Shown piece after piece: positions 1,634 to 63,381 of a stretch of 64,000 nt of DNA. The stretch is from Sipunculus nudus (taxonomy: Eukaryota > Annelida > Sipuncula > Golfingiida > Sipunculidae). The position numbers and the translations under genes were made by a program. Numbering within the stretch: position 1 is the first letter of the stretch; each line of letters starts with the position of its first letter. Location of the stretch: contig CM049307.1 of the NCBI GenBank assembly GCA_026874595.1, forward strand, positions 34,638,862-34,702,861, written 5' to 3'. Below the pieces are notes generated by a model. It made no database searches, was not told the origin of the DNA, and saw only the letters and a list, made by a program, of their open reading frames with translations.

Positions 1634-2975
1634 AGCAAATCTGTGTATACTTATGCAATGGTGTGGCATCGTCCGTCGTCCGTCGTGCGTCATAGCTATC
1701 TCAAACAGGGCAGGAGCTAGCATTACCAATTTTTCTGCAAAAGATTTGGCATCTAAAAAAATTTTGGATTTTTAGCGAACCTGTGAGCTTATGCAATGTT
1801 GCTGCATCGTCCATCGAGCGTCAGTGCGTCGCGCGTCGTCTCTAGTTAACCATACCTATCTCAAAAATGGCAGGAGCTAGTATCACCAGATTTTTTGCAA
1901 ATAATCAGTCATCAGTCATAATTTGTTAATTTTTTTTCTAACTGCATATTCTTAGGTTTTTGCACAGCGTCCATCTGTTCATCTGCCTTGGGATAAAAAC
2001 ACTCATATCTCTGCATTGGTTGGACCTATCGACCTGAAATTTTGCATGTGTATACATCTTGGACAGCTTTCTTGATTTTATGACAGGTGGCGCCGCCTAC
2101 ATCATGTTTAAGCTGCAGAGAGCCAAGCACATATCTTGGGAACCGTTTGACCAGTTGGGCGAACATTTTTCATGTGTATAGATCTCCCATAGCTCTTTAT
2201 CATACGCAAAACTGGTGGTGCCACCTGCAACCATTTTTGCACAGCGTCCATCTGTTCATATGCCTTGGGATAAAATCACTCATATCTCGGCAGTGGTTTG
2301 ACTTAACCACCTGAAATTTTGCAAGTTTATACATCCTTGACAGCTTTCTTGATTTTATGGCAGGTGCTACCACCTACATTCAAAATTACGCTGCAGACAT
2401 CTAAGCTCATATCTCTGGACTGGTTTGACATTTCCCCCTGAAATTTTGCATGTTTATAGATCTCACATAGCTCTTGATCATACACAAAATTGGTGGCGCC
2501 ACCTGCCACCATTTTTTGCACGGCGTCCATATGTTTGTCTGCCCTGGGCTAAGATCACTCATATCTCAGTAGTGGTTTGACTTATCTGCCTAAAATTTTG
2601 CATATGTATACAACTTGGACAGCTTTTCTGGATTTTGTGGTAGGTGGCGCAACCTACATACACATTTCGGCTGCAGACATCCATGCTAATATGCAAAACA
2701 CCTCACTCTATTTCCCCTTGCCACTCAATCAATGCCTCACTTCACCCGTCCCACTCTGATTTCGGCGGATACACGTAGTGGCTTGTCGACTACCCGTATT
2801 CTAGTTTTAAAATGTCCCAGTCCGAAACTTGCAGGTCCGAAACATCCATTTTGCTGAAGTTATAATACTAAGGTAGATATGCAGGACATAAGAGGATCAA
2901 TATTAAATTTTCAAAATAATCCTCCATTCATAATCCCAAACTTTGCACAGGTTCGCATTCAGCCTGTAGGCCTTG
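1634..2975 (+). mobile_element. Family B Helentron-like element, interrupted
   Basis: The 5' part has two tandem starts, TTTTTAGCAAATCTG at 1630 and TTTTTAGCGAACCTGTGAGC at 1770. Each is followed by GTCCGTCGTCCGTC-like sequence and 'ATCTCAAA..GGCAGGAGCTAG'. The 3' end has CACAGGTTCGC, which is the reverse complement of the 5' GCGAACCTGTG. A hairpin (AGCCTGTAGGCCT) and CTTGTTTTT follow. A family C copy interrupts it from 1957 to 2804. There is no open frame of significance. Confidence 0.65.
1957..2804 (+). mobile_element. Family C Helitron-like element, 5' truncated
   Basis: About three internal tandem units of the type 'TTTGCACAGCGTCCATCTG ... TCACTCATATCTC ... GTGGTTTGAC ... GGTGGCGCCACC'. 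They are followed by the family 3' end: GGCGGATAC, the hairpin GTAGTGGCTTGTCGACTAC, then CCGTATTCTAG. The 5' terminus with GTATCCGCC is missing. Small open frames on either strand are incidental. Confidence 0.75.
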
Positions 2976-3839
2976 TTTTTAAGAAACTGGTAAGCTGATT
3001 GGTTTAAACTTTACAAGAACTGTTCTATGTATTGTTCTCTCAGTTTTATAAGAATAGATTAGGTAAATGCAGCTTTAAAAAGGCCTTGTAGCCAATTAAA
3101 AAAGACTTTCAGTGTTTGAAAACAGATTTGGCAGCATGGCAAGTTTCAACATGTCAACTCAAGAGGTCAATCAGTGCACTCAGGTGCAGTCCAAACATCA
3201 CCATGGCAACTGACCTGGCTATGCCTGGTGTCCAGATACAGTCTAGATGTCTAGATGTCTAGAACCTACCGACTGTGTCAGATTTTACAATAGTTCAAGT
3301 TACACTCTGTATCTATAAATAACTTTGGCAGACTGCCAACCATTTTAGATTTGCCAACAGGTCAAGTTTCAGTCTGTAAGAACCAGTGGTAAGTTTCAGT
3401 CTGTAAGAGCCAGTGGTGAGGTTACATGTGGCACAGTAGGTATGCGTGACCTGGGGGAAAGCTGAACCTCCATTGCCAGGATGCATAAGGTGTGACTCAA
3501 TACCAAGGCTAAAAGAGGAACTTGTTCTTAGATTTTATAGGGAAAAAGCTAAAAAAAACATTTCAAAATGTTCTTCTCCGAAACCATGCTGCCAAATTGT
3601 CCATTCATCTGTCCCAATATCCCTCCCTGGCGAAAAGAACATATCAGAAAATCCTGACTGATACATCCTAGTTTTAAAATGTCCTAGTCCATAACATGCA
3701 GGTCCGAAATGTCCATTTGGCTGAAATCATAATGACTAAGGTAGAATGCAGGAGTCATGAAAGGGTCAGTATTAAATTTTAAAAATAAACATTCATACTC
3801 CAAAACTTGCACAGGTTCACATTAGGCCTGTAGGCCTTG
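2976..3839 (+). repeat. Family B internal and 3' fragments
   Basis: Contains B-type internal sequence, including TTTATAGGGAAAAAGCTAAA and 'CTTCTCCGAAACC.TGC.GCCAAATTGTCC', and 'AACAGATTTGGCAG' motifs. It ends in a second copy of the B 3' terminus (ACAGGTTCACATTAGGCCTG, TAGGCCTTGTTTT). The stretches TTTTAAAATGTCC and GCAGGTCCGAAA.. occur twice, at about 2804 and 3672, so this is a partial duplication of the preceding element's tail. Confidence 0.6.
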
Positions 3840-6175: not shown

Positions 6176-6179
<4 letters not shown>

Positions 6180-6192
6180 TTTGAAATTTTAG

Positions 6193-6599
6193 TCCATGCA
6201 ATGCTACAGAAGCTGCATATTTGATTGAAGGTGCCTCCAGTTCAAGAATTGATCAACAGATGGTGACTGCACAGATGGTAACAAGACAGGTACAGATAGC
6301 CCTTGACATGGGGTTTCCCCGCGGTCTTGTCCAGAGTGTGGTGGAGATGCAGCTGAGGAACACTGGTCAGGGATTTTCGAATGCAGAAAGTCTGGTTGAA
6401 GCTGTGTTGAATGCTGCACCAGGTTTCCCGCAGAATAACAACAATGTACCGAAAATTATCCAAGCCAGTCCACCATCAGAGAACCCACAAAGTTTTGCAG
6501 TCACTAATCAAGGACCAAAGAAAAGAGAGGTGAACAGTGCCCAGGAACAGGCAGCATGTGCAGCTTCAGAAAAACAGCCAGAGCAAAAGGGAATGGGAG
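6193..6599 (+). CDS. Internal exon with IAP-type UBA domain (partial gene)
   Basis: One open frame runs from the acceptor (TTTTAG before 6193, or CTACAG before 6210) to a donor GGAG|GTGGGT at 6600. The exon therefore ends after the first base of a codon. The translated segment contains VQIALDMGFPRGLVQSVVEM and then TGQGFSNAESLVEAVLNA. This is the MGF-type first helix and the long second half typical of the ubiquitin-associated domain between the BIR and RING parts of inhibitor-of-apoptosis proteins. The remainder (PQNNNNVPKI..., KKREVNSAQEQ) is low-complexity polar linker. UBA domains bind ubiquitin chains, and in IAPs this one supports signalling scaffolds. No BIR exon or RING cysteines are visible in the window, so family membership rests on the UBA alone. 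Upstream exons lie before the window or in unresolved sequence. The UBA-like fold is fairly sure. Assignment to an IAP is moderate. Confidence 0.7.
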
Positions 6600-6639
6600 G
6601 TGGGTGATAAAGTGGTCATCTCTTGTCTCATCTCTGGTG

Positions 6640-6976: not shown

Positions 6977-8407
6977 TTGTATCCGCCAAAACGAAGTTTT
7001 GCGGAAACTATGTTTTTGACTGAATTTCCGGAGAACTCCTCTGAGACTATTGGAGGGATTTTCCCGAAACTTAACCAGTTATCGGGTCACCTGTGAACTG
7101 GTGCCTAACCAATTCATGTTGACCTCTGACCTTCCCTCTCTGCATAGCATCCATTTGTGCGTATGTTTCCACACATAAACCCACATATCTCGGTAACCGT
7201 TTGACCGATGAGGAAAAAAATTTTGTACAAATGTAACCCTTGGATAGCTTTATAACATACACAAACAATGGTGGCGCCACCTGCAACCATGTTTGCACAG
7301 TGTCCATCTGTTCGTCTGCCTTGGGTTAAATCACTCATATCTTTGCAGTGGTTTGACTAATTCACTTGAAATTTGGCATGCGTATACATCCTGGGTAGCT
7401 TTCTTGATTTTATGACAGGTGACGCCACCTACATTCACATTTACACTGCAGACATCCAAGCTCATATCTCGGGAACTGTTTGACCGATCTGGCCAAAATT
7501 TTGCATGTGTATAGATCTCACATAGCTCTTTATGAAACGCAAAACTTGTGGTGCCACCTGCAGCCATTTTTGCACAGCATCCGTCTTTTTGTCTGCCGTC
7601 GGATAAAATCACTCATATCTTGGCAGTGGTTTGACATATCTGCCTAAAATTTTACAGGTTTATACATCCTGGAGAGCTCTCTTGATTTTATGACAGGTGG
7701 CACCACCTACATTCTAGTTTACGCTGCAGACATCCAAGCTTATTTCTCGGGAACTGTTTGACTGATTTGGCCAAAATTTTCATGTGTATAGATCTCACAT
7801 AGCTCTTTATGAAACGCAAAACTGGTGGCGCCACCTGCAGCCATTTTTGCACAGCATCCATCTGTTTGTCTGCTGTGGGATAAAATCACTCATATCTCGG
7901 CAGTGGTTTGACATATCTGCCTAAAATTTTGCAGGTTTATAGATGCTGGACAACTCTCTTGATTTTATGACAGGTTGCGCCACCTACATTCTAGTTTACG
8001 CTGCTGACATCTAAGCTCAAATCTCGAGAACCGTTTGAACGATTGGGCCAAAATTTTGCATGTGTATAGATCTCACATAGCTCTTTATCATACTCAAAAC
8101 TGGTGGCCCCACCTGCAACCATTTTTGCACAACGTCCGTCTGTTTGTCTGCCACGGGCTAAAATCACTCATATACATGTAGTGGTTTGACTTATCTGCCT
8201 TAAATTTTGCATATGTATACTTGGACAGCTTTCTGGATTTTGTGGTAGGTGGCACAACCTTCATACACATTTCGGCTGCAGACATCCATGCTAATATGCA
8301 ACACTTGACTCTATTTCCCCTTGCCACTCAATCCATGCCTCACTTCACCCGTTCCACTCTGATTTTGGCGGATACACGTGGTCGCTTGTCGACTAGCCGT
8401 ATTCTAG
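6977..8407 (+). mobile_element. Family C Helitron-like element, full length
   Basis: Begins TTGTATCCGCCAAAACGAAG. The first bases form a hairpin, GTATCCGCCAAAAC with GTTTTGCGGAAAC. It ends with TTTTGGCGGATAC (the reverse complement of the 5' motif), a hairpin-type sequence GTGGTCGCTTGTCGACTAG, then CCGTATTCTAG. Between them lie about four tandem units carrying GGTGGCGCCACC or close variants at 7270, 7420, 7550, 7700, 7826 and 7975. There is no transposase or helicase frame. The element is non-autonomous. The related sequence at 63,900-63,940 lacks the insertion and supports the boundaries. Confidence 0.8.
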
Positions 8408-25969: not shown

Positions 25970-27163
25970 TTGTATCCGCCAAAACAGAGTTTAGCGGATA
26001 CTATGTTTTCAGTTGCACACTGCCGCAGCCACCGCCGCCACGTAGGTGTCCGGAGAACTCCTCCGTAACCGCTGGGCGGAATTTTACAAAACCTGGGATT
26101 ATGTTCGGGTCACATGTGAACTACTGCACCCTGATTTTGTTTTGACCTCTGACCTTTCCTCTGCGCTCTGCGTCCGTTTGTGCATCTGTTTCCACACATA
26201 AACCCACATATCTCGGGAACCGTATGACGGATCAGGAAAATTTTTTTAGCACAAATGTAGCCCTTGGAGAGCTTTATAACATACACAAAAAATGGTGGCG
26301 CCACCTGCAACCATGTTTGCACAGTGTGCATCTGTTCGTCTGCCTTGGGTTAAAGCCACTCATATCTCTGCAGTGATTTGACTAATTCAGCTGAAATTTG
26401 GCATGCTTATACATCCTGGATAGCTTTTCTGATTTTATGACAGGTGGCACCACCTACATTCCCGTTTACGCTGCCAACATCCAAGCTCATATCTCGGGAA
26501 CCGTTTGACCGATTTGGCCAAAATTTTGCATGTGTATAGATCTCACATAGCATATCATATGCAAAACTGGTGGCGCCACCTGCAGCCATTTTTGCACAGC
26601 TCCCGTCTGTTTGTCTGCCATGGGATAAAATCACTCATATCTAGGCAGTGGTTTGACATATCTGCCTAAAATTTTGCAGGTTTATACATCCCCGACAGCT
26701 CTCTTGATTTTAAGACAGGTGGCGCCACCTGCATTCTAGTTTATGCAGCAGACATCCAAGCTCATAACTTGGGAACCATTTGACCGATTGGGCCAAAATT
26801 TTGCTTGTGTATAGTTCTCACATAGCTCTTTATCATACTCCACACTGGTGGCGCCACCTTCAACCATTTTTGCACAGCGTCCAACTGTTTTTCTGCCACG
26901 GGCTAAAATCACTCATAAACATTTAGTGGTTTGACTTATATGCCTCAAATTTTGCATATGTATACAACTTGGACAGCTTTCTGGATTTTGTGGTAGGTGG
27001 CGCAACCTACATACACCATTTGGCTGCAGACATCCATGCTAATATGCAACACTTCACTCTATTTCCCCTTGCCACTCAATCCATGCCTCACTTCACCCGT
27101 TCCACTCTGATTTAGGCGGATACACGTAGTCGCTTGTCATCTTATTAGTAACCCGTATTCTAG
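25970..27163 (+). mobile_element. Family C element, 1.2 kb
   Basis: Starts TTGTATCCGCCAAAACAGAG and ends 'CCCGTATTCTAG'. The terminal hairpin is disrupted here (GTAGTCGCTTGTCATCTTAT). Internal units have GGTGGCGCCACC at 26,293, 26,570, 26,717 and 26,846. The site without the insertion is at about 61,995 (GATAGTAATTAGCACAATG), showing insertion at AA|TT. Confidence 0.85.
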
Positions 27164-42099: not shown

Positions 42100-42267
42100 A
42101 GCGAACCTGTGAGCTTATGCGATGGTGTGGCGGCGTCCGGCGTCTGTACGTTAACCCATACTATCTTGAAAACGACAAGAATTAGCATCACAAAATCTTA
42201 TGCATAAAATTAGTCATCTAAAAAACTCTATCAGATTTTGCTTGTTTTTTGGCTAACTGCATTTTTT

Positions 42268-44733
42268 AGCTCAGCTGACTATAAGTCATCTGAGCTATAG
42301 TCGTGGTCCTTTGTCCGTCGGCCGTCCGTTAACAGGGCACGTTTTAAAACCGTTGGACCTACGAATCCAAAATTCTGCATACTATTAGATGTCCCAAAAA
42401 TCTCCTACCATACCGAAAATTGGGTCATTAGAACTTCGTTCCTTCGAGATATTAAGGAAAAACCTCCGTTTTCCATAAAAAAGCAATTGTTACACTTCAA
42501 GTCTGCCTAATATCAAAACCACTGATCTGTTTTTGATCATATTTAATATTCATATTCTTCCTCACATTTTCTGTGCACATACCAAAAATTAAGTCAGTAT
42601 TGGGTATTATTTTGAAGTTATAGGCCCAAATATAATGCAATTTTTTAAAAATCAGGAAATATATTTGCTCACTTAACATGAGAATTGCTGAAGCTGAAGA
42701 CTTTTTTTCAGGAATATAACTTTATTTAATCAAGATTCAATTGTTTGCCCAAAATTAGATCTGAATTTTGCAAATTTTTCAAGTTATTAGCATAAATAAA
42801 AAATAAATACCTTAAATTTGTCCAAATTTGGCAGTGGCACGTTTTTTCCCTGTAAGCACTGTTGATTTAATTTTCACAGCATATATACATAAGGGTTTAA
42901 TCTTTTAAAATCTGAAATTTCAAAGAAATTGTTTGAAAAGAGTAGCTTTTATTCAAGTTTTCATACACCATGTCAAGTGTTGTTTATATCTGGCCCACCT
43001 AGTAGTACAGCCTTCACTTGCATTATGTAACCCACCCCAGGCAGCTTGCCTTGACCCAGCTTGGCCATTACTAGCAGGCTTCTCCTCTGCCCTGCACTTA
43101 ACCCCCCCCCCCCCCCCAGCTGGTGCATAAACTAGATGAATGTTATAATTTTCTGTATTTTATTTTATTCTTGGACATGCTACATTTTAGATTTTGTATT
43201 GTACCACCAGGGTTACAATGATTAAAGTGCACATTTAATTGTGTCCACAAAGTGATGTATTGCTATGAAAGTATGGATGTTCATCAGATAAGTAATGCTT
43301 TACTTCAGAAGAGTAAAACTTCACCAGGTGTGAAATTGACTATTAATTCCAGTTATTATTTATAGCTGAGATTGTAATTAGCATAATGATATTGTTTGTC
43401 CCTCGTTCAACCAACAGTGTGTATACTTTATTTGAAAAGATGTTTTTATTTTATAAAATTTACTGAATCTTTTATTTTATTTTGGTGAATAAAATAAAGC
43501 TTGTCCTGAAAACTCCAATGTGCAAAACTTTTCAATAGGAATTCAAGGAATAATTTTGTAGATGCCATGTTGTGGCATTATTTTCTTTTACATTCAGTTT
43601 AAACATTTGATTTAAAAATAATAAAATATATATGTATGCATAATATGACCCAATGTGAGCTACAATCTGGATATATAATGATTGCAACTTAGAATTCTAA
43701 TATTTTAACTTATATTTTCACTTTTATATTACAAATTTATAACACTTGTAAATAAAAAAAATGAATCAGATAAAAACTATTAATGAAAAAAGTGGATATG
43801 CTAAAAAAATAGGCTTATATATAAACTTAAATGCATTATTCCTTTGAAAGTGAAATGAAGGTATTAGTCCATTCTGTCCACTTGCCTGTCCATCTGTAAA
43901 TTTTTCATATGCATCAAAGTATCTCAAAACTTTTACTGTTTTTCTTCATGACAGTCTTGTCAGAGTATTAGTTTGCAATCATATATTGAGAGCTTTACTA
44001 TAACCAAGTAGGAGGGCCCTTTCCTCTTAGCTTCTCATATGCTTATATAAATATAAAACATTACAATAGAATATTTTTCATATTTTGCATTTGCAAAAAT
44101 TTCAAACTTTTGTCGTGACCCATGGGTCCTTTGTTTATATTCTGGATTCTCAACATCATTGTTTGGCTAAAACTGAATAAATACCAGACATGGTGCAAAT
44201 ACTTTGCAAATGTATATGAATATGAATATGAATTTGTACTCCATTATAAAATTTCTTGCATAAGAATGGGAATTCAGGTAAAAATGAAAGTATTTGAATA
44301 CCAGTGCAAATACTTTCAAAATGTATTCATGAATGCATATATTCTATAATATTATTTTAATAATTAGTTCAGTTAGATTTTATTAAAAAAATCATATGAT
44401 TGTCTTATTATTTTTAATAAAAATTATATTGGCACAATATTTGTTATTAAATTTTAATAAATAGTTAAACTCTTTTATTATATGTGCTGCTTATAAGTTA
44501 TATGGCCAAGTCAAAATCTGTGTGACAATAGCACTCCATTTGTTAATAAAATAAATGAAATCAATCCTCCTCCCTGTCTCCAAAAATACTATCAAAATCA
44601 TACATAAGCTAAACACCAACAACTCATAATAAAGCTTATATTTATTACCACACAAAACCAGCATATGCCTGTTTCCCAAATCATATTTTTTATCCTATAT
44701 AACAGCTGAGCTCCATGACCCATGGGTCCCTTG
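42268..44733 (+). mobile_element. Family A insertion in family B (composite)
   Basis: Starts AGCTCAGCTGACTATAAGTC at 42,268 and ends AACAGCTGAGCTCCATGACC, CATGGGTCCCTTG at 44,733. A second family A end (TCGTGACCCATGGGTCCTTTG, 44,133) lies inside, so this is one element within or next to another. Joining the flanks AACTGCATTTTTT and TTTAGATTTTATAGGG restores the sequence of the intact family B copy. Confidence 0.8.
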
Positions 44734-46514
44734 TTTAGATTTTATAGGGAAAAAGCTAAAAAAGCTTAAAAAATCTTCTTCTCCGAATCTGTTCAGCCAA
44801 ATTGTCCAATATTTTAAAGAAATGATTCCTGGAACAATTTCTCTCAAGTTTGTTCGAATGGTTTAAGTTCGGTGATTTTTGGCCGAGTTACAGGAAGTTG
44901 AACTTAGTCATCTGTCCAAAAAAGCATACTAAAATTACAATCTCAGGAATGGCTTGAGCTGTCATCACCAAATTTTATGCCAATGTTGGTCACATGAGTC
45001 ATATCTGAAATTGAGGTATTGGTGGCGCCACCTGTATCGGCCTTTTTTGTACGGGGGTCATCAGTGCCCATATCATACTGACAGCTACAAATAACTTCTT
45101 CTCTGAAATGAAATGGCCAAATTGTTTAATATCGCACAGAAATGATCCTAGGGTAGTGCTTTCTGAAGTTTGTTCAAATGGTCTCAGTTCAGTGACTTTT
45201 GGCTAAGTTATGGGAAGCTGAATTTAGTCATATGCCATAACAGCCTATGTAAGCTAAGTGGCTACAAAAATCTTCTCAAAAACCTCTGGGCCAAATTCTT
45301 AAATCTCAAACATTAATTATCCTTAGATGTTGATAATTCAAGTTTGTTCAAATGGTCTCAGTTCAGTGACTTATGGCTGAGTTATGGGAAGCTGAATTCA
45401 GTCATAACCCATAACAGCCCATGTAAGCTAAGTGGCTACAAAAATCTTCTTCTCAAAAACCACTGGGCCAAATTCTTAAATCTCACACATTAATTATCAT
45501 TAGATGTTGATAATTCAAGTTTGTTCAAATGGTCTCAGTTCAGTGACTTTTGGCTAAGTTATGGGAAGCTGAATTTAGTCATATGCCATAACAGCCCATG
45601 TTAGCTGAGTGGCTACAAAAATCTTCTTCTCAAAAACCACTGGGCCAAATTCTTAAATCTCATACATTAATTATTCTTAGAAGTTGATAATTTCAAGTTT
45701 GTTCAAATGGTTTTGGTTCAATGATTTATGGCTGAGTTATGGGAAGCTGAACTTTGCCATTTTGCTGTATTTTCCCATATGAGTTATAAACCTACAAAAC
45801 GTTTTTTGACTGATGATACTGAGGCCAGTTTGTTTAATATTTTGCAAGAATAATTCCCTGAATCATTCTAATAATATTTGTCTTTTATGGTTCCAAAAAA
45901 TGAATTTTGGCTTAATTATAAAGATTGAATTGAGTCATTTTACCATATATGTTAGCTGTGTGAAGCAGATACATCTAGCCTAGCACCAGTTTATCAGCAT
46001 CCATTACATCATGCCTCTAGACATTTAGATTTCAGAATATCTATGGAAAGTATTGACAAGAATGTTTTTTAAAAGCTTTAAAAAAATGTAGATTTATGAT
46101 ATTACATATCATCTGTACACTATTCATAATTTCTCAGGAATAGCAGGAGCTACCATCTCCAAATTTTATGCAATTATCAGTCACATATCAAATGTTGATG
46201 GATTCAGCTTATTTTTGCTATCTGCATTTACTTAGATTTTACAGGGGAAAAGCTGAAAAAAACTTCTTCTTCTTGTAAAGAGTTCAGCCAAATTGTTCGA
46301 TATTTTACAGAAATGATCCCAGAGGCGAGCCTTCTCAAGTTTGTTCAAATGGTTTGTGTTGAATAAATTTTAGCAGAGTTACATATTAGGCCAAGATTGT
46401 GTATGTTTCTTGAATAGGTTGAGAAACTGCCAACTGTTTCAGATTTGGCAACAGATCAAGAGTTCATTCAGTGCAGCCAGATTTAGGTCAAGAGTTCAGT
46501 CAGTGCAGCCAAGC

Positions 46515-46602
46515 ACAAGGCATGTGATCACCTCATGTGCAGCATGTGATCATTTCATGGGTAGCATGTGATCACCTCATGAGTATCCTGTGATCACCTC
46601 AT
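46515..46602 (+). repeat. ~22-bp minisatellite in family B
   Basis: Four copies of CATGTGATCACCTCATG with spacers (GTGCAG, GGTAG, AGTATC). The core TGATCA is palindromic. It is flanked by repeated 'GTTCA.TCAGTGCAGCCAGGT' words. Found once in the window. Confidence 0.85.
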
Positions 46603-47162
46603 GTTCATTCAGTGCAGCCAGGTACAGGTGAAAAGTTCACTCAGTCTAGCCAGGTGCAGGTCAAGAGTTCACTCAGTGCAGTAGCCTGAGCCAGTAATTT
46701 GTCACAGTACACTCGGGGCAACAGCCTTTCTCACCTAAGCCTGGTCAGCCCCGTGCATCAGACTCAAGGTAAGTTTGATGTATTGGCCTGATATTCTGAC
46801 CTGTCTATGTGTCTTTAATGGCTTTCTCGTTCACAAGACAGGTGTTGCCATCTACAATGACTTTTGCAAAGTGTATGTGCCTGCTTAATTCTACGGAAGA
46901 ATTTGATATATCAGCCTGAAATTGGGCATATTTATACATGTCAAATAGCTTTGTCGTATACAAGACTGGTGGTGCCACCTACAATAATTTTTGTGTTGTG
47001 TGCACCCATGCCAGAATTTCAGCAGTGATGTTTGTGTGTTTCTTGTTCAAAATGTTTAGTACTTGCATTGTTCATATATATGAAAAGTAGTGGTTCAGCA
47101 TTGAAGCGTTATACCTGGTGTATATCCATATGCACAGGTTCGCATTAGGCCCGTAGGCCTTG

Positions 47163-48045
47163 TTTAATTAAGATTAAATTGTATACCAAAAAAATAAGAT
47201 CTGAATTTGGTAAATTTTTTAATTTGTAAGCATAAAAATAAAATCAGTACCTTAAATTTTGCCCAACTTTGACCATGGCATGTTTTTTTCCTGTGAGTAC
47301 TATTGATTTAACTTTTACAGCATGTAAACGTATGTAATAATTTGTTTAAACCTGAAATTTGAAAATAAAAGCTTGAAACTTAGGATAGATTTTTTTCTTG
47401 ATGCTCTATTGTAGTCATTTGCTTTGTCCACATGCAGGCAGCCCACTACTGGTCACTGGAAGTCAGCTATGCCAGGGTTTCTGATTTGTTACAGCCACTG
47501 GGGGAGATCTCCTGCTGTGACATATGTACAGTTGTTCTCATATCACCACCCCAATCCCCCCCCCCCCCCAGCAAACCCAACCCACCAAGTGTTATGCAGT
47601 AATTGTATCCGCCAAAACAAAGTTTTGCGGATACTATGTTTTTGTTCAGGTTCTGCGGCCAATTATAATTATATTTTATTATAAAATCACTCATATTTGA
47701 CAGTGGTTTGACTTATCTGCCTAAAATTTTGCAATTGTATACAACTTGGATAACTTTCTGGATTTGTGGCAGGTGGCGCCACCTACATATTTTGGCTGCA
47801 GATGTCCATGCTAATATGCAACACACCTCTCTCTATTTCCCCTTGCCACTCGATCAATCCATGCCTCACTTCACCCGTCCCACTCTGGATAGTCGCTTGT
47901 CGACTACCTGTATTCTAGTTGTTATTGTTTTCACTGTAACTCCTTAATTGTATTGCTATTTCAACTCCAGTATACAAAAACTTTCCTTGAAAAAGTAATT
48001 CAAGTAAATCCAGAAGATGCCATGTTGTGTTAATGTAACATTTTT
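47163..48045 (+). repeat. Family A body split by short family C copy
   Basis: Family A landmarks (TTTTGACCATGGCATGTTTT, 'CACTGGAAGTCAGCTATGCCAGGG', C-tract at 47,558) up to 47,602. They continue at 47,919 with GTTATTGTTTTCACTGTA. Confidence 0.75.
47603..47918 (+). mobile_element. Deleted family C element, 316 bp
   Basis: Has the complete 5' hairpin (TTGTATCCGCCAAAACAAAG, TTTTGCGGATAC) and the 3' end AGTCGCTTGTCGACTACC, TGTATTCTAG. Most internal units are missing and only one GGTGGCGCCACC (47,772) remains. The empty site is at 23,738-23,765 (GCAGTAATTGTTATTGTTTT). Confidence 0.85.
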
Positions 48046-50075
48046 AGCTCAGCTGACTGTAAGTTACCTGAGCTATAGCGATCACTCTTTGTCCCTCGTC
48101 CGGCCAACCTGCCGTCTGTCCGTTAACAAGGCACAAATTGTAACCTTTACATCCAGAGATGTCCATGAAAAATCTCCTTGGAAACCTGGAATTAGGTCTC
48201 TATTACCCATATTCTTCAACCTATGGGGCTCTGAAGTACCCCCCAGAATAATGAAAAATTTGATAACTAATGCATTGATGCATTGATCACCATGATTCTT
48301 TGCATGGATATTAATCATGGAGCTTTTCATCAGTTTCTGTAGACTGGTGGCGCCACCTGTATTTCCTTTATTTTTAGCTTAGCTGACTATAAGTCATCTG
48401 AGCTATAGTCGTGTTCCATTGTCTGTCGTCTCTCCAGCTATCCGTCTATCCTTCCGTCTGCCCATAGATGTGGCACGTTTTGAAACCATAAGACCTAGGA
48501 ATCCAAAATTCTGCATAATTTTAGATGTCCCCAAGATCTACCAAGCCGAAAATTGGGTCTTTGCAACTGCGTTCCCTTGAGAAATTAAGGAAAAACCTCA
48601 ATTTTTTATTAAAAACCTATTTTCACACTTCAGGACTGCCTAATATCAAAACCACTCATCTGTTTTTTCTCATATTTGCCATAAATATTCCTCTATATAG
48701 TTCCTATGTACATGCCAGAAATTATGTCTGTATTTTATAATTTAAAAAAGTTATGGGCTCAAACATAATGCATTTTGTAAACAAAACAGGAAAGATATTT
48801 GATCACTTAACACAAAACTTGTTAAAACTAAGGACTTTTTTTCCAGTAATATAACTTAAATTAATCAAAATTAAATTGTATACCCAAAATTAGATCAAAA
48901 TCTTTTAAATTTTTTAAAATAGCAAAAATAAAAAATTGGTACCTTAAATTTTGCCCAACTTTGGCCACGGCACGTTTTTTCCTGTAAGTACAGTGGATTT
49001 AATTTTCACAGCATGTGCACATAAGGATTTAATCTGTTTAAATCTGAAATTTGAAAATAAAAGCTGCAAAATTAGGCTAGTTATTGAATTTTTTTTTTGG
49101 AGGCTCTTGTTGTATTCCCTTACATTGTCAAGCAGTCCACTTTAGGTCATTTAGTGCAGCTCTCTATGCTCCCCAGGCTGTTGGCATAATGTTATGCAAT
49201 CCCATCACTAGGGCAAGCCCTCTCTCGATCCTCTGAGTTGAGCTTGATCAGGCTGTCTGCAGTTAATACCTCAGGGAGCCTTTTTCTCTCTCTCTCTCTC
49301 CCCCCCCCCTCCCCCACCCCATTCTGTTGACAGACCTGTACTATGAACTAGATGAATCTTAAAATTAACATTTTTTTCAGCGACGAGCAGTAACAACGGA
49401 GACCCCTGCCCCCACCCACCCCTTCAATACACAGGACTAATAAACAAGATTAATCTTATACTTTTAATGTTAAATAAATTCTTTTTGATGAGACTTGGAT
49501 AATATTGATTTTTTAAAAGAAAAATATTTCAGAAATTAAATCCTAATATTCAGATGTGATAAAATATTAGGATCTAAGTGCTTACTGACAATATTTAAGA
49601 AGATATAAATACTTTGTAGCATTTCATTCATATCTCTTAAAGTTGGCGGGGCCTAGGTGTGGATAGCCCAATTCTCAAGCTATTGGGCTAAGAAGTACCC
49701 CCCAGAATAATAGAAAATTTGATACCAAACTAGGTCACAAATCATAACCATGGGGCCCAGAATCTTCTAATTTGACATCCTGAGAGTTCCCCAAAAGTTC
49801 TCCCAAAAAACCTGAAATTGGGTCACATTGACCTATATTCTCAGAGTTTTGGGGTATGTTTGAGGACCCCAGAAATAATGCAAAATACACACAAATTGCC
49901 AGATTTCTCATGAAAGGCTGGTTGGATTGTCATCAAATTTGTTGTGCTTATGGGTCTTGATAAACTTAAGCTAATATGCAAGAACAATGATGCCACCTAT
50001 CGTAATTGGTTTTCTGTGCAAGGACATATTATCAACATGTCAGTTGGCTAAGCGTCATGACCCATGGGTCACTTG
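48046..50075 (+). mobile_element. Family E element with nested family A
   Basis: 5' AGCTCAGCTGACTGTAAGTT, ACCTGAGCTATAGCGATCAC; 3' 'CAGTTGGCTAAGCGTCATGACCCATGGGTCACTTG'. A family A copy starts at 48,376 (AGCTTAGCTGACTATAAGTC) and runs to about 49,640. There family E resumes with 'GGGCTAAGAAGTACCCCCCAGAATAATAG'. Confidence 0.7.
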
Positions 50076-53011: not shown

Positions 53012-56000
53012 AGCTCAGCTGACTATAAGTCATCTGAGCTATAGTCGTGGTCCATTGTCCGTCCGTCCGTCTGTCCGTCCGTCCGTCCGTCCGTCCGTAG
53101 ATGTGGCACGTTTTGAAACCGTAAGACCTAGGAATCCAAAATTCAGCATAATGTTAGATGTCCCCAAGATCTCCTACCAAGCCGAAAACTGGGTCTTTGC
53201 GACTTCATTCCTTTGAGAAATTAAGGAAAAACCTCAATTTTTTTATTAAAAACCTATTTTCACACTTCAGGACTGCCTAATATCAAAACCACTCATCTGT
53301 TTTTCCTCATATTTCCTATAAATAATCCTCTATATAATTCCTATGTACATGCCAGAAATTAGGTCTGTATTATATAATTTAAAAAAGTTATGGGCCCAAA
53401 CATAATGCATTTTGTAAATAATCAGGAAAGAAATTTTATCACTTAACACAAAACTTGTTAAAGCTAAGCACATTTTTTCCAGTAATATTACTTTTATTAA
53501 TCAAAATTAAATTGTGTCCACAAAATAAGATCAAAATCTTTTAAATTTTTTAAAATATTAGCAAAAATAAAAAATTGGTACCTTAAATTTTGCCAAACTT
53601 TGACCATGGCACGTTTTTTTGCTGTAACTGCTGTGTATTTAATTTTCACAGCATGTTTTTGTTAGCATTTCAACTGTTAACACCAAAAATTTGAAACCAG
53701 TTGATCAAAAACTGTAGATTTTATTCAAGTTTTCAAGCACCTTGTCACATATTGCTAGTGTTATGCAGTTTGCTAGAGCTCAGCTCCCGAGCTTCAGCTC
53801 TAAGTTCCTTAAATTTGGCATACAGTTGGATTTCTCCAAAATCCCCTACCATGCCAAGAATTTGGTCACTAGGACTTAATTCCTTTGAGATATCAATGAA
53901 AAACTTCATTTTTCCATTAAAAACCCATTGTTACACTTCAAAACCACTGATCTGACTTTGATCATTTATAATATACATATTTTTCTATACATTCGCTATG
54001 CACATGCCAGATATGATGTCAGTATTGTGTATTTTTTTTAAGTTATGGGCCCAAACATAATGCACTTTTTTAAAAATCAAGAAATATATTTACTCACCTT
54101 AGATGAGAATTGCTGAAGCTGGAGACTTTTTGTCAGGAATATAACTTTATTTAATCAAGATTCGATTGTTTACCCAAAATTAGATCTGAATTTTGCAAAT
54201 TTTTCAAGTTATTAGCTTAAATAAAAAATCAATACCCTAAATTTTGTCCAACTTTGGCAATGGCATGTTTTTTTTTCTGTAAGCACTGTTGATTTAATTT
54301 TCACAGCATATATACATAAGGATTTAATCTTTTAAAATCTGAAATTTCAAAGGAATTGATTGAAAAGAGTAGCTTTTATTCAAGTTTTCATACACCATGT
54401 CAAGTGTTGTTTACATCTAGCCCACCTAGTAGTAAAGCCTTCACTTGCATTATGTAACCCACCCCAGGCAGCTTGTCTTAGCTCAGCTGGGCCACTACTA
54501 GCAGGCTTCTTCTCTGCCCTGCACACCCTCCCCCCCCCCTAGATGATGCATTAACTAGATGAATGTTATAATTTGCTGTATTTCATTTTATTCTTGGCTA
54601 TGCTACATTTTAGATTTTGTATATACCACCAGGGTTACAATGATTAAAGTGCACATTTAATTGTGTCCACAAAGTGGTGTATTGCTGTGAAAGTGTGGAT
54701 GTTTATCAGATAAGTAATTCCTTCCTTGAGAAGAGTAAAAACTTCACAAGGTGTGAAATTGACTATTAATTCCAGGAATAAATTAAAGCTTAGATTTTAA
54801 TTAGCATAATGATATTGTTTGTCCCTCATTTAACCAACAGTGTGTATACTTTATTTGAAAAGATGTTTTTATTTTACCAAATTTACAGAATCTTATTTTA
54901 TTTTGGTGAATAAGATTAAGCATGTACTGAAAACTCCAATGTGCAAAACTTTTTAATAGTGATTCAAGGAATAATCTTGCAGATGCCATGTTGTGGCATT
55001 ATTTTCTTTTAAATTCAGTTTAAAAATTTGTGATTTAAAAATAATAAAAATATATGTGTATGCATAATATGACCCAATACGAGCTACACTCTGGATGTAT
55101 AATGATTGCAACTAAGAATTCTAATATTTTAACTTATATTTTCAGTGTTTTTTTAATACAGATTTATAAAACTTGTAAATAAAAAATATTAATCAGATAA
55201 AAACTATTTTAATGGAAAAAGTGGATATGCTTAAATAATATATAAACTTAAATGTATTATTCCCATGAATGTGAAATAAAGGTATTAGTCCAGACCGAGG
55301 AATCCAAAATTCGGCATAATGTTAGATGTCCCCAAGATCTCCTACTAAGCCAAAAACTGGGTCTTTGCAACTTTGTTCCTTTGAGAAATTAAGGAAAAAC
55401 CTCAATTTTTTATTTAAAACCTATTTTCACACTTCAGGACTGCCTATTATCAAAACCACTTATCTGTTTTTCCTCATATTTACCATAAATATTCCTCTAT
55501 ATAGTTCCTATATACATGCCAGAAATTATGTCTGTATTATTTAATTTAAAAAAGTTATGGGCCCAAACATGATGCATTTTGTAAAAAATCAGGAAAGATA
55601 TTTGATCACTTAACACAAAAAATGTAAAAGCTATGGACATTTTTTCCAATAATATAACTTTAATTAATCAAAATTAAATTGTATACCCAAAATTAGATGA
55701 AAATCTTTTAAATTTTTTAAAATATTAATAAAAATAAAAAATTGGTACCTTAAATTTTGCCCAACTTTGACCATGGCACGTTTTTTTACTGTAAGTACTG
55801 TGGATTTAATTTTCACAGCATGTTTTTGTTAGCATTTCAACTGTTAAAACCAAAAATTTGAAACCAGTTGATCAAAAACTGTAAATTTTAATCAAGTTTT
55901 CAAGCACCATGTAACATATTGTTTACATCAAGCTAGTGTTATGCAGTTTGCAAGAGCTCAGCTCCCCAGCTTCAGCTCTAAGTTCCTTAAATTCGGCATA

Positions 56001-57773
56001 CAGTTAGATGTCTCCAAAATCCCCTACCATGCCAAGAATTTGGTCACTAGGACTTAATACCTTCGAGATATTAATGAAAAACTTCATTTTTCCATTAAAA
56101 ACCCATTGTTACACTTCAAGACTGCCTAATATCAAAACCACTGATCTGACTTTAATCATAAATAATATTTTTCATTCTCTATGCACATGCCAGAATGATG
56201 TCAGTATTGCGTAATTGTTTTAAGTTATGGGCCCAAACATAATGCACTTTGTAAAAAATCAAGAAATATATTTACTCCCTTAACAAGGGCATTGCTGAAA
56301 CTAGAGAATTTTTTGTCAGGGATGTAACATTATTTAATCAAGATTCAATTGAATACCCAAAATTAGTTCTGAATTTTTCAAATTTTATAAGTTATTAGCA
56401 TAAATATAAAATTAGTACCTTAAATTTTGCCCAACTGTGACCATGGCACGTTTGTTTCCCGTTAGCACTGTTGATATAATTTTCATATCATGCACACATA
56501 AGGATTTCAGCTTTTTAGTTTAGAAAGCTGAAAGAAATTGGCCAAATATTGTAGCTTTTATTAATGTTTTTTATGAGACCCTGTCAGACTTTGGCTCTCT
56601 CCAGCCCCTCTTGAGTCACCACTTTGTTGACCTTGTTGACCTTTCATCAAATTATGCACGCTTGGGGCGAGAATCCAGGCAGCTTATGGCCAGCCACAGT
56701 TGATCCAGGTGTCCAACCCAACTCATCTAGTAGTTTTAACCAACAACATAACAATAAACAATAAATTAATAAATTTTTATTGGTTTTTAATAACAAATTA
56801 AAGAAAAAACAGAAAAGGAATTTGTTAGTTTATAATAACAGGAAATTAACTTGCAGTTACTGATGATATAAGAATCTTGTATCGATGGGTAGAATGTCAC
56901 ATATTCCAAATAACACCATGCAGTCACCTATGGCATTTTTCAGTTCAATTTTAATGATAAAGAAGTAAATCTTATTATTCATTACTAATAATTAGGGATT
57001 ATATGAAGGAAATTAATGATAGACAAAGATGCAGTTGATAATATTAATCTAGATTCCTACTGTGTCTAGTGTGTACATTGATGTGAAATTAGTCCAAAAT
57101 GAATTTTTTACAGTTATTTTTTAATATAAATAAAGGCCATAAAACCAGGTACTTATGATCATTATTTAAATGTGTGAATTTTGTATATTCTGGATTCTCA
57201 ACATCTTTGTTTGGTGAAAACTGAATAATTACCAGACATGGTGCGAATACTTTGTAATTGTTTATGTACTCCATTATAAAATTTCTTGCATAAAGAATGG
57301 GAATTCAGGTAAAAATGAAAGTATATGAAAACTTGTGCAAATACTTTCAAAATGTATTCATGAATGCATTCATGAATATATTCTTTAATATTATTTTAAT
57401 AATCATATCAGTTATATTTCATTTTAAAAAATCATATGATTCTCTTATTATTTTTAATAAAAATTATATTTGGGACAATATTTGTAATTTTTTTAATGAA
57501 TAGTTAAACTCTTATATTATATGTTCTGCTTATAAGTTATATGGCCAAGTCAAAATCTGTGTGACAGTAGTACTCCATTTGTTAATAAAATAAATTAAAT
57601 CAATCCTCTTCCCTGTCTCCAAAGGTACTATCAAAATCATACATAAGCTAAACAACAACAACTCATAATACAGCTTATATTTATTACCACACAAAACCAG
57701 CATGTGCCTCATTTCTAAATAATATTTTTTTATCATATATAACAGCTGAGCGTCGTGACCCATAGGTCCCTTG
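53012..57773 (+). mobile_element. Run of family A elements (A and A2 variants)
   Basis: Begins AGCTCAGCTGACTATAAGTC at 53,012, only nine bases after the previous family A end, with a (CCGT)n block at 53,057-53,097. Second body unit from about 53,660. C-tract at 54,531. Another A body from 55,290. The A2 tail from about 57,150 ends AACAGCTGAGCGTCGTGACC, CATAGGTCCCTTG at 57,773. The stretch 55,290-56,400 is near-identical to 39,210-40,320, which indicates recent duplication. Confidence 0.7.
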
Positions 57774-60213
57774 TTAAAAACCTATTTTCACACTTCAGGA
57801 CTGCCTAATATCAAAACCACTCATCTGTTTTTCCTCATATTTACCATAAATATTCCTCTATATAGTTCCTATGTACATGCCAGAAATTATGTCTGTATTA
57901 TTTAATTGTATCCGCCAAAACGAAGTTTTGCGGATACTATGTGTTTGACCGGGTTCCGCCGCCGCCGCTGCCGCTGCGTTCGTTTCCAGAGAACTCCTCT
58001 GAGACTACTGGACAGATTTTTCCGAAACTTACACAAATTATCGGGTCACATGTGAACTGGTGCCTAACCAAGTGACCTTGACCTCTGACCTTTCGTCTCT
58101 GCCCAGCGTCCGTTTGTGCGTCTGTTTACACACATAAACCCATATATCTCGGGAACCGTTTGACGGATCCGGAAAACATTTTTACACAAATGTAGCCCTG
58201 GGATAGCTTTATAACATACACAACAAAAGGTGGCGCCACCTGCAACCATGTTTGCACAGTGTCCATCTGTTCATCTGCCTGGGGATAAAATCACTCATAT
58301 CTCTGCAGTGGTTTGACTAATTCACCTAAAATTTGGCATGCATATACATCCTAGATAGCTTTCTCAATTTTATGACAGGTGGCGCCACCTACATTCACGT
58401 TAACGCTCCACACATAAACCCATATATCTCGGGAACCGTTTGACCGATCCGGAAAAAAATTTTACACAAATGTAGCCCTGGGATAGCTTTATAACATACA
58501 CAACACAAGGTGGCGCCACCTGCAACCATGTTTGCACGGTGTCCATTTGTTCATCTGCCTGGGGTTTAAAATCACTCATATCTCTGCAGTGGTTTGACTA
58601 ATTCACCTAAAAATCGGCATGCATATACATCCTAGATAGCTTTCTTGATTTTATGACAGGTGGCGCCACCTACATTCACATTAACACTCCACACATAAAC
58701 CCATATATCTCGGGAACCGTTTGACCGATCCGGAAAAAATTTTTACACAAATGTAGCCCTGGGATAGCTTTATAACATACACAACAAAAGATGGCGCCAC
58801 CTGCAACCATGTTTGCACAGTGTCCATTTGTTCATCTGCCTGGGGTTAAAATCACTCATATCTCTGCAGTGGTTTGACTAATTCACCTAAAATTCGGCAT
58901 GTGTATACATCCTAGATAGCTTTCTTGATTTTATGACAGGTGGCGCCACCTACATTCACGTTAACGCTGCAGGAATCCAAGCTCATATCACGGGAACCGT
59001 TTGACCGATCCGGAAAACATTTTTACACAAATGTAGCCCTGGGATAGCTTTATAACATTCACAACAAAAGGTGGCGCCACCTGCAACCATGTTTGCACAG
59101 CGTCCATCTGTTTGTCTGCTGTGGGATAAAATCACTCATATCTATGCAGTGGTTGACTTTTCCACATGAAATTTTGCATGTGTATATATCTTGGATAGTT
59201 TCTTGTTCAAATAACAGGTGGCGCCACCTACAATCATGTTTATGTGGCAGAGATCCATTCTAATATTTAACACATGTAACTCTTTATCCCCTTGCCACTC
59301 AATCCATGCCTCACTTCACCTGTCCTTCTCTGATTTTGGCGGATACACGTAGTCGCTTGTCGACTACCCGTATTCAAGTTAAAAAAAGTTATGGGCCCAA
59401 TCATAATGCATTTTGTAAAAAATCAGGAAAGATATTTGATCACTTAACACAAAAAATGTTAAAGCTATGGACCTTTTTTCCAGTAATATAACTTTAATTA
59501 ATCAAAATTAAATTGTATACCCAAAATTAGATGAAAATCTTTTAAATTTTTTAAAATATTGATAAAAATAAAAAATTGGTACCTTAAATTTTGCCCAACT
59601 TTGACCATGGCACGTTTTTTTCCTGTAAAGTACTGTGGATTTAATTTTCACAGCATGTTTTTGTTAGCATTTCAACTGTTAATAGGACTTAATACCTTTG
59701 AGATATTAATGAAAAACTTCATTTTTCCATTAAAAACCCTTTGTTACACTTCAAGACTGCCTAATATCAAAACCACTGATCTGATTTTAATCATAAATAA
59801 TATACATATTTTTCATTCTCTATGCGCATGCCAGAATGATGTCAGTATTGCGTAATTGTTTTAAGTTATGGGCCCAACATAATGTACTTTGTAAAAAATC
59901 AAGAAATATATTTACTCCCTTAACAAGGGCATTTGCTGAAGCTAGAGATTTTTTTGTCAGGGATGTAACATTATTTAATCAAGATTCAATTGAATACCCA
60001 AAATTAGTTCTGAATTTTTTCAAATTTTATAAGTTATTAGTATAAATATAAAATTAGTACCTTAAATTTTGCCCAACTGTGACCATGGCACGTTTGTTTC
60101 CCGTGAGCACTGTTGATATAATTTTCATATCATGCACACATAAGGATTTCAGCTTTTTAGTTTAGAAAGCTGAAAGAAATTGGCCAAAAATTGTAGCTTT
60201 TATTAATGTTTTT
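57774..60213 (+). repeat. Family A body split by family C
   Basis: TTAAAAACCTATTTTCACAC onwards is a family A body without its 5' part. It breaks at 57,905, resumes at 59,379 (TTAAAAAAAGTTATGGGCCC), and continues to the next family A start. Internal deletion near 59,680 relative to 55,850-56,050. Confidence 0.7.
57906..59378 (+). mobile_element. Family C element with 280-bp tandem units
   Basis: Starts TTGTATCCGCCAAAACGAAG with the perfect hairpin partner TTTTGCGGATAC. It ends TTTTGGCGGATACACGTAGT, CGCTTGTCGACTACCCGTAT and TCAAG (CTAG in other copies). The words ACACATAAACCCATATATCT recur at about 58,130, 58,410 and 58,690, a period of 280 bases with few differences, so the units were amplified recently. 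GGTGGCGCCACC occurs twice per unit. The empty site is at 55,548-55,560. Confidence 0.9.
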
Positions 60214-62735
60214 AGCTCAGCTGACTATAAGTCATCTGAGCTATAGTCGTGGTCCATTGTCCGTCGTCCGTCCGTCCGTAAGACTGGCACGTTTCGACAC
60301 CGTTGGACCTACGAATCTGAAATTCGGCATACAGTTAGATGTCCCCAAAATCTCCTACCATGCCAAAAATTGGGTCAATAGGACTTTGTTCCTTTGAGAT
60401 ATTAAGGAAAAACCTCAATTTTTTATTGGAAATCTATTTTCACACTTCAGGACTGCCTAATATCAAAACCACTCATCTGGTTTTCTTCATATTTACCATA
60501 AATATTCCTCTATATAGTTCCTATGTACATGCCAGATATTAAGTCAGTATTATATAATTTAAAAAAGTTATGGGCCCAAACATAATAGACTTTGTAAAAA
60601 AATCAGGAAGATATTTGGTCACTTAAGACCAAAAGTGTTAAAGGTAGGGACTTTTTTCCAGTAATACAACTTTAATTAATCAAAATTAAATTGTATACCA
60701 AAAATTAGATCAAAATCTGTTAAATTTTTTTAAATATTGGCAAAAATATAAAATTGGTACCTTAAATTTTGCCCAACTTTGGCCACGGCACGTTTTTTTC
60801 CTGTAAGTACTGTGGATTTAATTTTTACAGCATGTATACATAAGGATTTAATCTGTTAAAATCTGAAATTTGAAAATAAAACCTGCAAAATTAGGCTAGG
60901 TATTGAATTTGTTTGGAGGCTCTTGTTGTATTCCCTTACATTGTCAAGCAGTCCACTTTGATGACTGTAGGTCATTCAGTGCACATCTCTATGCTCCCCA
61001 GGCTGTTGGCATAATTTTAGATGTCCCCAAAATCTCCTACCATACCGAAAATTGGGTCGTTAGGACTTCATTCCTTCGAGATATTAAGGAAAAAAAACTC
61101 CGTTTTCCATAAAAAAGCCATTGTTACACTTCAAGGCTGCCTAATATAAAAAACACTGATCTGTTTTTGATCGTATTTGGTATTCACATTCTTTCATACA
61201 TTTTCTATCAACATACCAAAAATTAGGTCAGTATTGGGTATTATTTTGAAGTTATGGGCCAAAACATAATGCAATTTTTTTAAAAATCAGGAAATATATT
61301 TACTCACCTAACATGAGAATGGCTGAACCTAGAGACTTTTTTGCAGGAATATAACTTTATTTAATCAAGATTCAATTGTTTACCCAAAATTAGATCTGAA
61401 TTTTGCTAATTTTTCAGGTTATTAGCATAAATAAAAAATCAATACCTTAAATTTTGTCCAACTTTGGTAATGGCACGTTTTTTCCCTATAAGCACTGTTG
61501 ACTTAATTTTCACAGAACATATATAAGGATTTCATCTTTTAAAATCTGAAATTTCAAAGAAATTGATTGGAAAGAATAGCTTTTATTCATGTTTTCATAC
61601 ACCATGTCAAGTGTTGTTTACATCTAGCCCACCTAGTAGTACAGCCTTCACTTGCATTATGTAACCCACCCCAGGCACCTTGACTTGGGTCAGCTTGGCC
61701 ACTACAGGCAGGCTTCCCCTCTGCCCTGCACCCCACCCCCCCACCAAGATGGTGCATAAACTAGATGAATGTTATTATTTTCTGTATTTGATTCATTCCC
61801 TATCCTAGGCTATGCTACATTTTAGATTTTGTATTGTACCACCAGGGTTACAATGATTAAAGTGTACATTTAATTGTGTCCACAAAGTGGTGTATTGCTA
61901 TGAAAGTGTGGATGTTCATGAGATAAGTAATTTCTTACTTCAGAAGAGTAAAAACTTCACCAGGTGTGAAATTGACTATAAATTCCAGTAATAAATTAAA
62001 ACTGGGATAGTAATTAGCACAATGATATTGTTTGTCCCTCATTCAACCAACAGTGTGTATACTTTATTTGAAAAGATGTTTTATTTTATAAAATTTACTG
62101 AATCTTTTATTTTATTTTGGTGAATAAAATTAAGCATGTATTGAAAACTCCAATGTGCAAAACTTTTTAATAGTGATTCAAGGAATATTCTTGTAGATGC
62201 CATGTTGTGGCATTATTTTCTTTTAAATTCAGTTTAAACATTTATGATTTAAAAATAATAAAATATATGTGTATGCATAATATGACCCAATATGAGCTAC
62301 ACTCTGGATTTATGATGATTGCAACTTTTGCAACAATTCTAATATTTTAACTTATAGTTTCAGTTTTTAAATCTGTATATATAATGATTGCAACTTTTGC
62401 AACAATTCTAATATTTTAACTTATATTTTCAGGTTTTTTTATTAAAAAGTTATAAAACCTGTAAATAAAAAAATGATTCAGATAAAAACTTCTTAATGGA
62501 AAAAGTGGATATGCTTAAAAAATAGGAGTATATATAAACTTAAATGCATTATTCCCTTGAAAGTGAAATAAAGGTATTAGTCCATTCTGTCCACTTGCCT
62601 GTCCATCTGTAAATTTTCATATGCATCACAGTATCTCAAAACTTTTGCTGTTTTTCTTCATGACAGTCTTGTCAGAGTATTAGTTTGCAATCATATATTT
62701 AGAACTTTACTATAACCAAGTAGGAGGGCCCCTTT
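60214..62735 (+). mobile_element. Family A element, least interrupted long copy
   Basis: Starts AGCTCAGCTGACTATAAGTC after GTTTTT, then two successive body units (second from about 61,010), the C-rich block at about 61,728, and the tail TATAACCAAGTAGGAGGGCC. It is cut at 62,735 by a minus-strand family B copy, so the 3' terminus is missing. It is the reference for defining insertions in the copy at 22,290. Confidence 0.8.
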
Positions 62736-63381
62736 TCCATAACTTAGCCAAAAAATCACTGAACTGAAACTATTTGAACAAACTTCAGAAAGCACTACCC
62801 AGGGATCATTTCCGTGCGATATTTAACAATTTGGCCTTATCATTTCAGAGAAGAAGTTATTTGTAGCTATCAGTATGATACTGGCACTGATGACCCCCGT
62901 ACAAAAAAGGCCGATGCAGGTGGCGCCACCAATACCTCAATTTCAGATATGACTCATGTGACCAACATTGGCATAAAATTTGGTGATGATAGCTCAAGCC
63001 GTTTCTGAGATTGTAATTTTAGTATGCTTTTTTGGACATATGACTAAGTTCAACTTCCTGTAACTCGGCCAAAAATCACCAAACTTAAACCATTCGAACA
63101 AACTTGAGAGAGATTGTTCCAGGAATCATTTCTGTAAAATATTGGACAATTTGGCTGAACAGATTCGGAGAAGAAGATTTTTTAAGCTTTTTTAGCTTTT
63201 TCCTTATAAAATCTAAGAAAATGCAGTTAGTCAAAAAATAAGAAAAATCCGATAGAGTTTTTTAGATGACAAATTTAATGCAAAAAATTTAGTGATGCTA
63301 ATTCTTGCCGTTTTCAAGATAGTATGGGTTAACCTACAGACAACGCCACACCATAGCATAAGCTCACAGGTTCGCTAAAAA
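62736..63381 (-). mobile_element. Family B element, minus orientation
   Basis: The right end, read on the minus strand, is TTTTTAGCGAACCTGTGAGC followed by TTATGCTATGGTGTGGCG, the family B 5' terminus. Internal words (reverse of AGCTGAAT, GGCCAAATTGTT and GGTGGCGCCACC at 62,926) follow in order. The family 3' end is missing at the left boundary. It has no nested insertion. Confidence 0.8.

Follow-up and report, generated by a model that had tools for sequence, protein, structure and literature searches.

The stretch of the Sipunculus nudus genome analysed here (64,000 nucleotides of contig CM049307.1, hereafter the window) carries copies of three repeat families, A, B and C, and we describe their ends, their insertion sites, their relation to rolling-circle transposons of the Helentron type and, as the central result, their predominant sense orientation in the introns of host genes. 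An earlier note on this DNA had ascribed one terminal architecture to the three families, and a scan of the window bears this out: all nine motifs noted for A, B and C are present in their places, within each family the 5' and 3' motifs are reverse complements of each other, and the 3' motif has a hairpin on its outer side. The subterminal inverted repeats measure 10-11 bp in A, 11 bp in B and 13 bp in C, lengths that fit the 11-15 bp or so expected of non-autonomous Helentrons; elements start with AG, GC or GT across the families, and the 3' hairpin is followed by CTTG (A, B) or CTAG (C), with CAAG in one C copy. The outer 3' hairpin folds in all three families, modestly (z-scores of -1.5 to -1.8, one copy per end), and A and C have in addition a strong 5' hairpin (z -3.7 and -7.0, respectively; one copy folded each). 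It is absent from the one B copy folded (z +0.5), as in some published relatives that have no 5' inverted repeat or hairpin. Moreover, A contains a GTCC-type microsatellite and C contains tandem repeats of 275-280 bp. Family E, a probable fourth member according to the earlier note, was not identified in the scan for this architecture, which yielded no acceptable further family.

Across the genome (1.43 Gb), exact matches number 6988 + 7131 = 14,119 for the A 3' end, 6817 + 6899 for the A 5' end, 2088 + 2064 = 4,152 for the B 3' end and 1450 + 1502 = 2,952 for the C 3' end, whereas the reversed pattern of each of these four ends gave 0 genome-wide matches; the end motifs thus occur far beyond chance. 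Among the first 100 A 5' ends listed, 43 are followed at 200-8000 bp by an A 3' end on the same strand, compared with 28 that have one on the wrong side, and 12 of these 43 distances fall within 1.1-1.9 kb. We are nearly certain that all three families are HINEs, non-autonomous derivatives of Helentrons, as the earlier note had proposed: for A this assignment follows from a Rep-bearing element with an A 3' end and from endonuclease remnants in A copies, for B and C solely from their anatomy and empty sites. Canonical Helitrons were rejected because they need 5' TC, 3' CTRR and an A-T target, in place of the AG/GC/GT starts, CTTG/CTAG ends and T-rich sites seen here.

Copies of A with both ends lie on the + strand at 22817..24725, 32185..33817, 36509..38390 and 48046..50075 (with a further A 5' end at 48376); another at 42268..44733 sits within a B-related repeat and contains a further A 3' end near 44133, and at 53012..57773 (+) an A 5' and an A 3' end enclose more A sequence, possibly more than one copy. 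B ends surround the nested A at 42101..47162 (+; 5' end at 42101, 3' end at 47133-47162) and enclose C-type sequence at 1635..3839 (+; 5' ends at 1635 and 1775, 3' ends at 2946-2975 and 3810-3839), where no spanning empty site was found and the pairing of the ends is not established. A further B 5' part occupies 62751..63381 on the minus strand. Family C is represented on the + strand at 6979..8407, 25972..27163 and, inside A sequence, 57908..59378 (with tandem repeats of about 277, 275 and 280 bp, respectively) and by a short copy at 47605..47918.

Insertion sites were reconstructed from uninterrupted relatives of nested copies in the window, in 12 comparisons over nine sites. Such empty sites were found within the window for the A copies at 22817 (60650-60806, 94%) and 42268 (paralogue 63295-63138, 92%), for the B copy at 42101 (paralogue 36902-37056, 86%) and for the C copies at 25972 (61936), 47605 (paralogues at 23672 and in intron stretch L043) and 57908 (39380-39538, 98.75%). 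For the C copy at 6979 they lie in the intron stretches L012, L017, L043 and L014, and for the A copy at 36509 in a diverged paralogue in L025; the match for 53012..57773 is partial. The joined flanks of the copies at 57908 and 48046 were cut one base off in the comparison. All nine targets are T-rich, in agreement with the flanks described in the earlier note. In eight of the nine, including the one compared with the diverged paralogue, the filled site is longer than the empty one by two or three bases (T, or TTA for B), and in the ninth, at 48046, by at most one. Nothing longer than TT or TTA was added at these sites, and the note's claim of insertion without duplication depends on the origin of the two or three extra bases, which could be a TT duplication or terminal Ts borne by the element, two origins that cannot be told apart here; Thomas and colleagues left the same choice undecided for mite HINEs (excerpted text of PMC4067079). 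The consistent target duplication of a DNA transposon or LINE (long interspersed nuclear element) was not seen at the nine sites, which are compatible with a 2-bp TT duplication; we therefore rejected a LINE or cut-and-paste transposon, either of which would need a longer duplication.

Matches to the Helitron Rep domain number at least 143 in the genome, and the region behind the Rep gene was examined in five elements, on contigs C7, C17, C13, C11 and C8. In the element at C7:71189229 the endonuclease frame is followed, after about 150 bp, by an A 3' end. The element at C17:35630192 contains, in a single frame of 2342 aa, the set of Rep, PIF1 helicase and C-terminal endonuclease that characterizes a Helentron partner (Helitron_like_N 5.1e-27, PIF1 6.5e-23, Exo_endo_phos 4.4e-4, the last with 20.5 bits below the curated cut-off of 24.5). 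Conversely, A copies carry what is left of such a gene: tblastn with the C7 endonuclease end detects its C-terminus inside family A at 24468..24611 (+, E 6.6e-15) as well as at 29040-29207, 38135-38278 and 52683-52890; at these four places the remnants stop 59-83 bp ahead of a 3' subterminal inverted repeat, and A copies in the introns L014 and L043 likewise keep them. Because of the A 3' end behind the C7 endonuclease and of these remnants, A is best read as a deletion derivative of such a Helentron. An autonomous element with matching ends, the support for which the earlier note had hoped, was thus half found: it provides the A 3' end, but the A 5' end was not found in the roughly 5 kb that precede the Rep match in the elements on C17, C13 and C7, or in another 8.2 kb at C7. 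None of the five Rep elements carries a B or C end of its own, and behind Rep no A, B or C motif occurs in the C11 element, which is of the OTU-Rep kind, or in the C8 element. Consequently, the single machinery that the note envisaged for all three families is unproven, although A is tied to a Helentron. In the C17 element an A-type end follows the frame at a distance of about 1 kb; it may belong to another copy and was not counted as evidence. The C13 relative of the C17 element shows only a chance match, and a match to TCAGCTAAGC in L032, which lacks a hairpin, was likewise put down to chance.

The Rep elements themselves offered some further observations. A C copy lies inside the C17 Helentron in the Rep sense (L035, about 866-1724), and the C13 relative is uninterrupted and T-rich at this place (L036, about 1241-1247). 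Residues 63-210 of the C17 frame match the herpesvirus tegument protease family PF04843 (1.8e-11), so that the N-terminal protease position is occupied by a PF04843-type domain in the C17 lineage and by an OTU protease in the C11 lineage; a paper on herpes-tegument-like deubiquitinases mentions Helentrons (PMC9741609). The OTU-Rep elements of C7 and C11 (L003 and L004) are 99.7% identical over the 3.6 kb compared, a near-identity that suggests recent movement.

With the ends defined, orientation can be followed. In the window, 44 of 45 recognised ends lie on the + strand, four of them as weak or partial matches (6034, 9018, 34442, 44117); only the B 5' end at 63365 is minus. On contig C1, where strands were compared for the first 100 places of each family (the first 5 Mb for A, 20.5 Mb for B and 28 Mb for C), 83 of the 100 A 3' ends are minus; along this list the strand switches 15 times, where 28 switches are expected and none of 20000 shuffles had so few. 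Moreover, the families agree with one another: pairs from different families share the strand in 33/36 cases below 10 kb, 25/28 at 10-20 kb, 64/79 at 20-50 kb and 100/135 at 50-100 kb, and in 51% at 1-2 Mb. Of 41 B and C ends with an A end (5' or 3') no more than 50 kb away, 38 have the strand of the nearest one (circular-shift null 58%, 0/5000), and C has the strand of B within 25 kb in 20 of 22 cases (null 49%, reached 12/5000 times). Neighbouring C ends, which are thinly spread in the list, show little agreement with one another past 10 kb. In these samples A, B and C share strand domains on C1. Co-orientation could be a by-product of nesting or tandem duplication of element blocks, for many copies in the window are nested and short-range agreement is high; this account is very improbable, since the agreement between different families at 10-20 and 20-50 kb extends too far for nesting and since, as described below, separate genes on different chromosomes match the gene strand. 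Our initial reading of the strand runs was instead that insertion takes place into the lagging-strand template at replication forks with which genes are co-oriented. The strand domains of about 0.1-1 Mb suit this reading, in particular a domain of about 1.1 Mb adjoining the contig end (C1:64038-1143091, hence 64 kb to 1.14 Mb from the end), in which the first 37 A 3' ends listed are all minus, and use of the lagging strand is known for IS608 and has been raised for Helitrons (PMC5371812 and PMC4778049, in the sections available).

The weight of the replication fork fell after orientation was compared with individual genes. For this purpose, 47 stretches of 2.5-5.2 kb, one per gene, were cut between matches to one domain (20 kinesin, 9 ion-channel, 7 SNF2 and 11 SLC6 genes), picked from a subset of the listed genes by exon positions and intron lengths before their sequence was seen; the assignment of both domain matches to one gene follows their order and strand and is least secure where SLC6 introns are longest. 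The window served as repeat library, and repeats outside A/B/C enter the any-match and base counts below, not the count of 21 genes. Any match was found in 24 of the 47 stretches and A, B or C in 21, and in 19 of these 21 genes A/B/C lie mostly in gene sense (p=2.2e-4); the other two are L025, which has an 85-bp fragment, and L055. Sense and antisense matches amount to 23303 and 1281 bp in kinesin, 8878 and 311 bp in SNF2, 2535 and 238 bp in ion-channel and 2707 and 2017 bp in SLC6 introns; about 91% of the matched bases are in sense in the 47 stretches together, and 95% in kinesin and SNF2 introns. We have little doubt that this sense bias is real. The gene-by-gene agreement of 19/21 exceeds what co-orientation of forks and genes alone would lead one to expect, which renders the fork account improbable. 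The sequence of the introns might also create the bias, if a T-rich target met with more T-runs on the sense strand, and T-runs do outnumber A-runs in the unmasked part of sense introns. Their excess is, however, just 53-56%, compared with about 91% sense bases, which refutes this explanation as the sole cause; five A copies, moreover, hold 59 A-runs and 51 T-runs, yet the copies nested in the window are co-oriented. We consider base composition hardly tenable as an explanation.

Within kinesin introns, all 18 matches to repeats other than A/B/C are in sense, and the chief kinesin exception to the sense rule is the intron L026, in which A-type sequence occurs in both orientations, the two facing each other. 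Repeats outside the library that are common to several introns form 9 sense-sense pairs and 0 inverted pairs; they do not serve as a control.

The gene families also differ in load. Ion channels were included to test whether, as predicted, few insertions occur in genes without germ-line transcription, and SNF2 and SLC6 form a second such pair, the classes being assigned by family name and not by expression. Any match occurs in 18/27 kinesin and SNF2 stretches as against 6/20 ion-channel and SLC6 stretches (p=0.019; p=0.035 without L060, which contains 359 N), and A/B/C in 16/27 as against 5/20 (p=0.037); for kinesin and ion channels taken by themselves the counts are 13/20 and 2/9 for any match and 11/20 and 1/9 for A/B/C only. 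The share of cut sequence covered is 27.3% in kinesin, 39.1% in SNF2, 5.9% in ion-channel and 14.3% in SLC6 genes.

The strongest rival is selection, according to which insertion occurs in random orientation and antisense copies in introns harm the transcript and are purged. An intron strand bias of transposons is known for other classes, and the ion-channel gene L043, the one with A copies, is also sense-biased, which fits purging. On the other hand, five A copies contain 33 poly(A) signals in sense and 37 in antisense and three C copies none, so that the copies counted show no strand asymmetry of such signals, and splice-donor-like words are few on either strand of the counted copies. Selection on orientation alone would not account for the smaller number of copies in introns of ion-channel and SLC6 genes, and a bias of about 95% would demand the removal of nearly all antisense copies. 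We regard selection as possible, though rather unlikely, and lean slightly towards insertion as the cause of the sense bias.

In sense orientation, the element's 5'-to-3' strand coincides with the coding, non-template strand, which also bears the T-rich target, and the fact that this orientation is common to unrelated families points to transcription. The simplest model is therefore insertion into the non-template strand during germ-line transcription, a statement to which, taken as a whole, we assign a probability of about 0.55. In this mechanism, transcription would expose the non-template strand as single-stranded DNA in a transcription bubble or R-loop, where the Rep nuclease would meet, cut and join it; copies would in this way enter germ-line-transcribed genes in sense. 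According to the accessible text of PMC4778049, a Helitron-type nuclease acts on single-stranded DNA, Helraiser favours expressed gene bodies, and both lagging-strand replication and transcription have been raised as sources of its single-stranded target. Several points weigh against transcription-directed insertion. The class contrast is weak and depends on family names; SLC6 includes one clear antisense case (L055), and there are antisense parts in L026 and L047 and an antisense fragment in L025. The three coding non-HINE elements found in introns are a LINE and a gypsy-type element in antisense and a Tc5-type element in sense. As a control from another transposon class, a LINE 3' end gave 79 matches, none of them in the section of C1 that the A/B/C lists span, too few for a powered comparison. 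When tRNA-like B boxes were sought as a sign of a short interspersed nuclear element, one match (L052) and no such element came up. The C1 lists, furthermore, span only the beginnings of the contig, neither the autonomous A 5' end nor a B or C partner was found, and INE-1 copies in chromosome 4 introns of Drosophila are described in either orientation, unlike the families here (PMC5624886, in part).

Elements of the HINE type are already known from oyster, mite and Drosophila, while the gene-strand rule appears to be new. The closest likeness is to Cg_HINE of the Pacific oyster, which, as described in the sections consulted of PMC7492417, share with the present families a subterminal inverted repeat (11-12 bp), an inverted repeat beside its 5' copy (in A and C here), a GTCC-type microsatellite, central satellite-like repeats, a 3' palindrome and T-rich sites. 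Cg_HINE could not, however, be related to autonomous elements in that source, whereas A is tied to one by its 3' end and the endonuclease remnant, a tie that speaks to the question of the autonomous partner left open for the oyster elements; we found no statement on their gene strand in the same sections. HINE-Mo and DINE-1/INE-1 with their Helentrons (PMC4067079, excerpts) resemble the present system in their subterminal inverted repeats, 3' palindrome, partner with Rep, helicase and endonuclease, and at least two Ts on either side of the insertion. Helitron2/FoHeli of Fusarium likewise has asymmetric terminal inverted repeats with hairpins and inserts at T-rich sites but differs as a fungal Helitron without endonuclease and with other end sequences (PMC5148889, in part). 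Helraiser, also a HUH rolling-circle transposon with a preference for expressed gene bodies, has canonical 5' TC/3' CTRR ends and an A|T target, and the available part of PMC4778049 makes no mention that we found of its strand relative to genes. Bacterial IS200/IS605 elements, IS608 among them, resemble the families here in single-stranded DNA transposition and in an orientation set by a host process, which is replication in their case whereas gene strand fits here (PMC5371812, accessible sections). In the literature that we searched, from which subscription papers were mostly missing and in which sources were available in part, no such bias of Helitron, HINE or INE-1 orientation relative to genes, replication or R-loops was found.

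How eukaryotic rolling-circle transposases find a single-stranded target is the question addressed here. We give about even odds to the broader proposition that a rolling-circle system targets the non-template strand exposed by transcription, and that the orientation of its copies across the genome would serve as a fossil record, resolved by strand, of transcription in the germ line that can be read from sequence alone. The transcription model can be tested from genome sequence and RNA data alone, and, if it is true, such elements flag gene strand and germ-line transcription in unannotated genomes.

Besides the three families, the window contains a probable host exon at 6185..6607 on the + strand, the strand of the elements, with a BIRC2/3-type UBA domain (Pfam PF21290, E 7.6e-6; 26.3 bits, slightly below the cut-off of 27.2). 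Further repeats without A/B/C ends, at 6723-6978 with 8408-8672 and at 5054-5544, may represent further HINE families, and a 31-bp satellite array occupies 1-874 and 1366-1493, with inverted copies at its far end. Elsewhere in the assembly, matches in long open frames of small contigs such as C61, C62, C72, C74, C83, C89, C102, C131 and C133 look bacterial; several of them recur as near-identical copies across contigs, and the sequence may stem from a symbiont or a contaminant.

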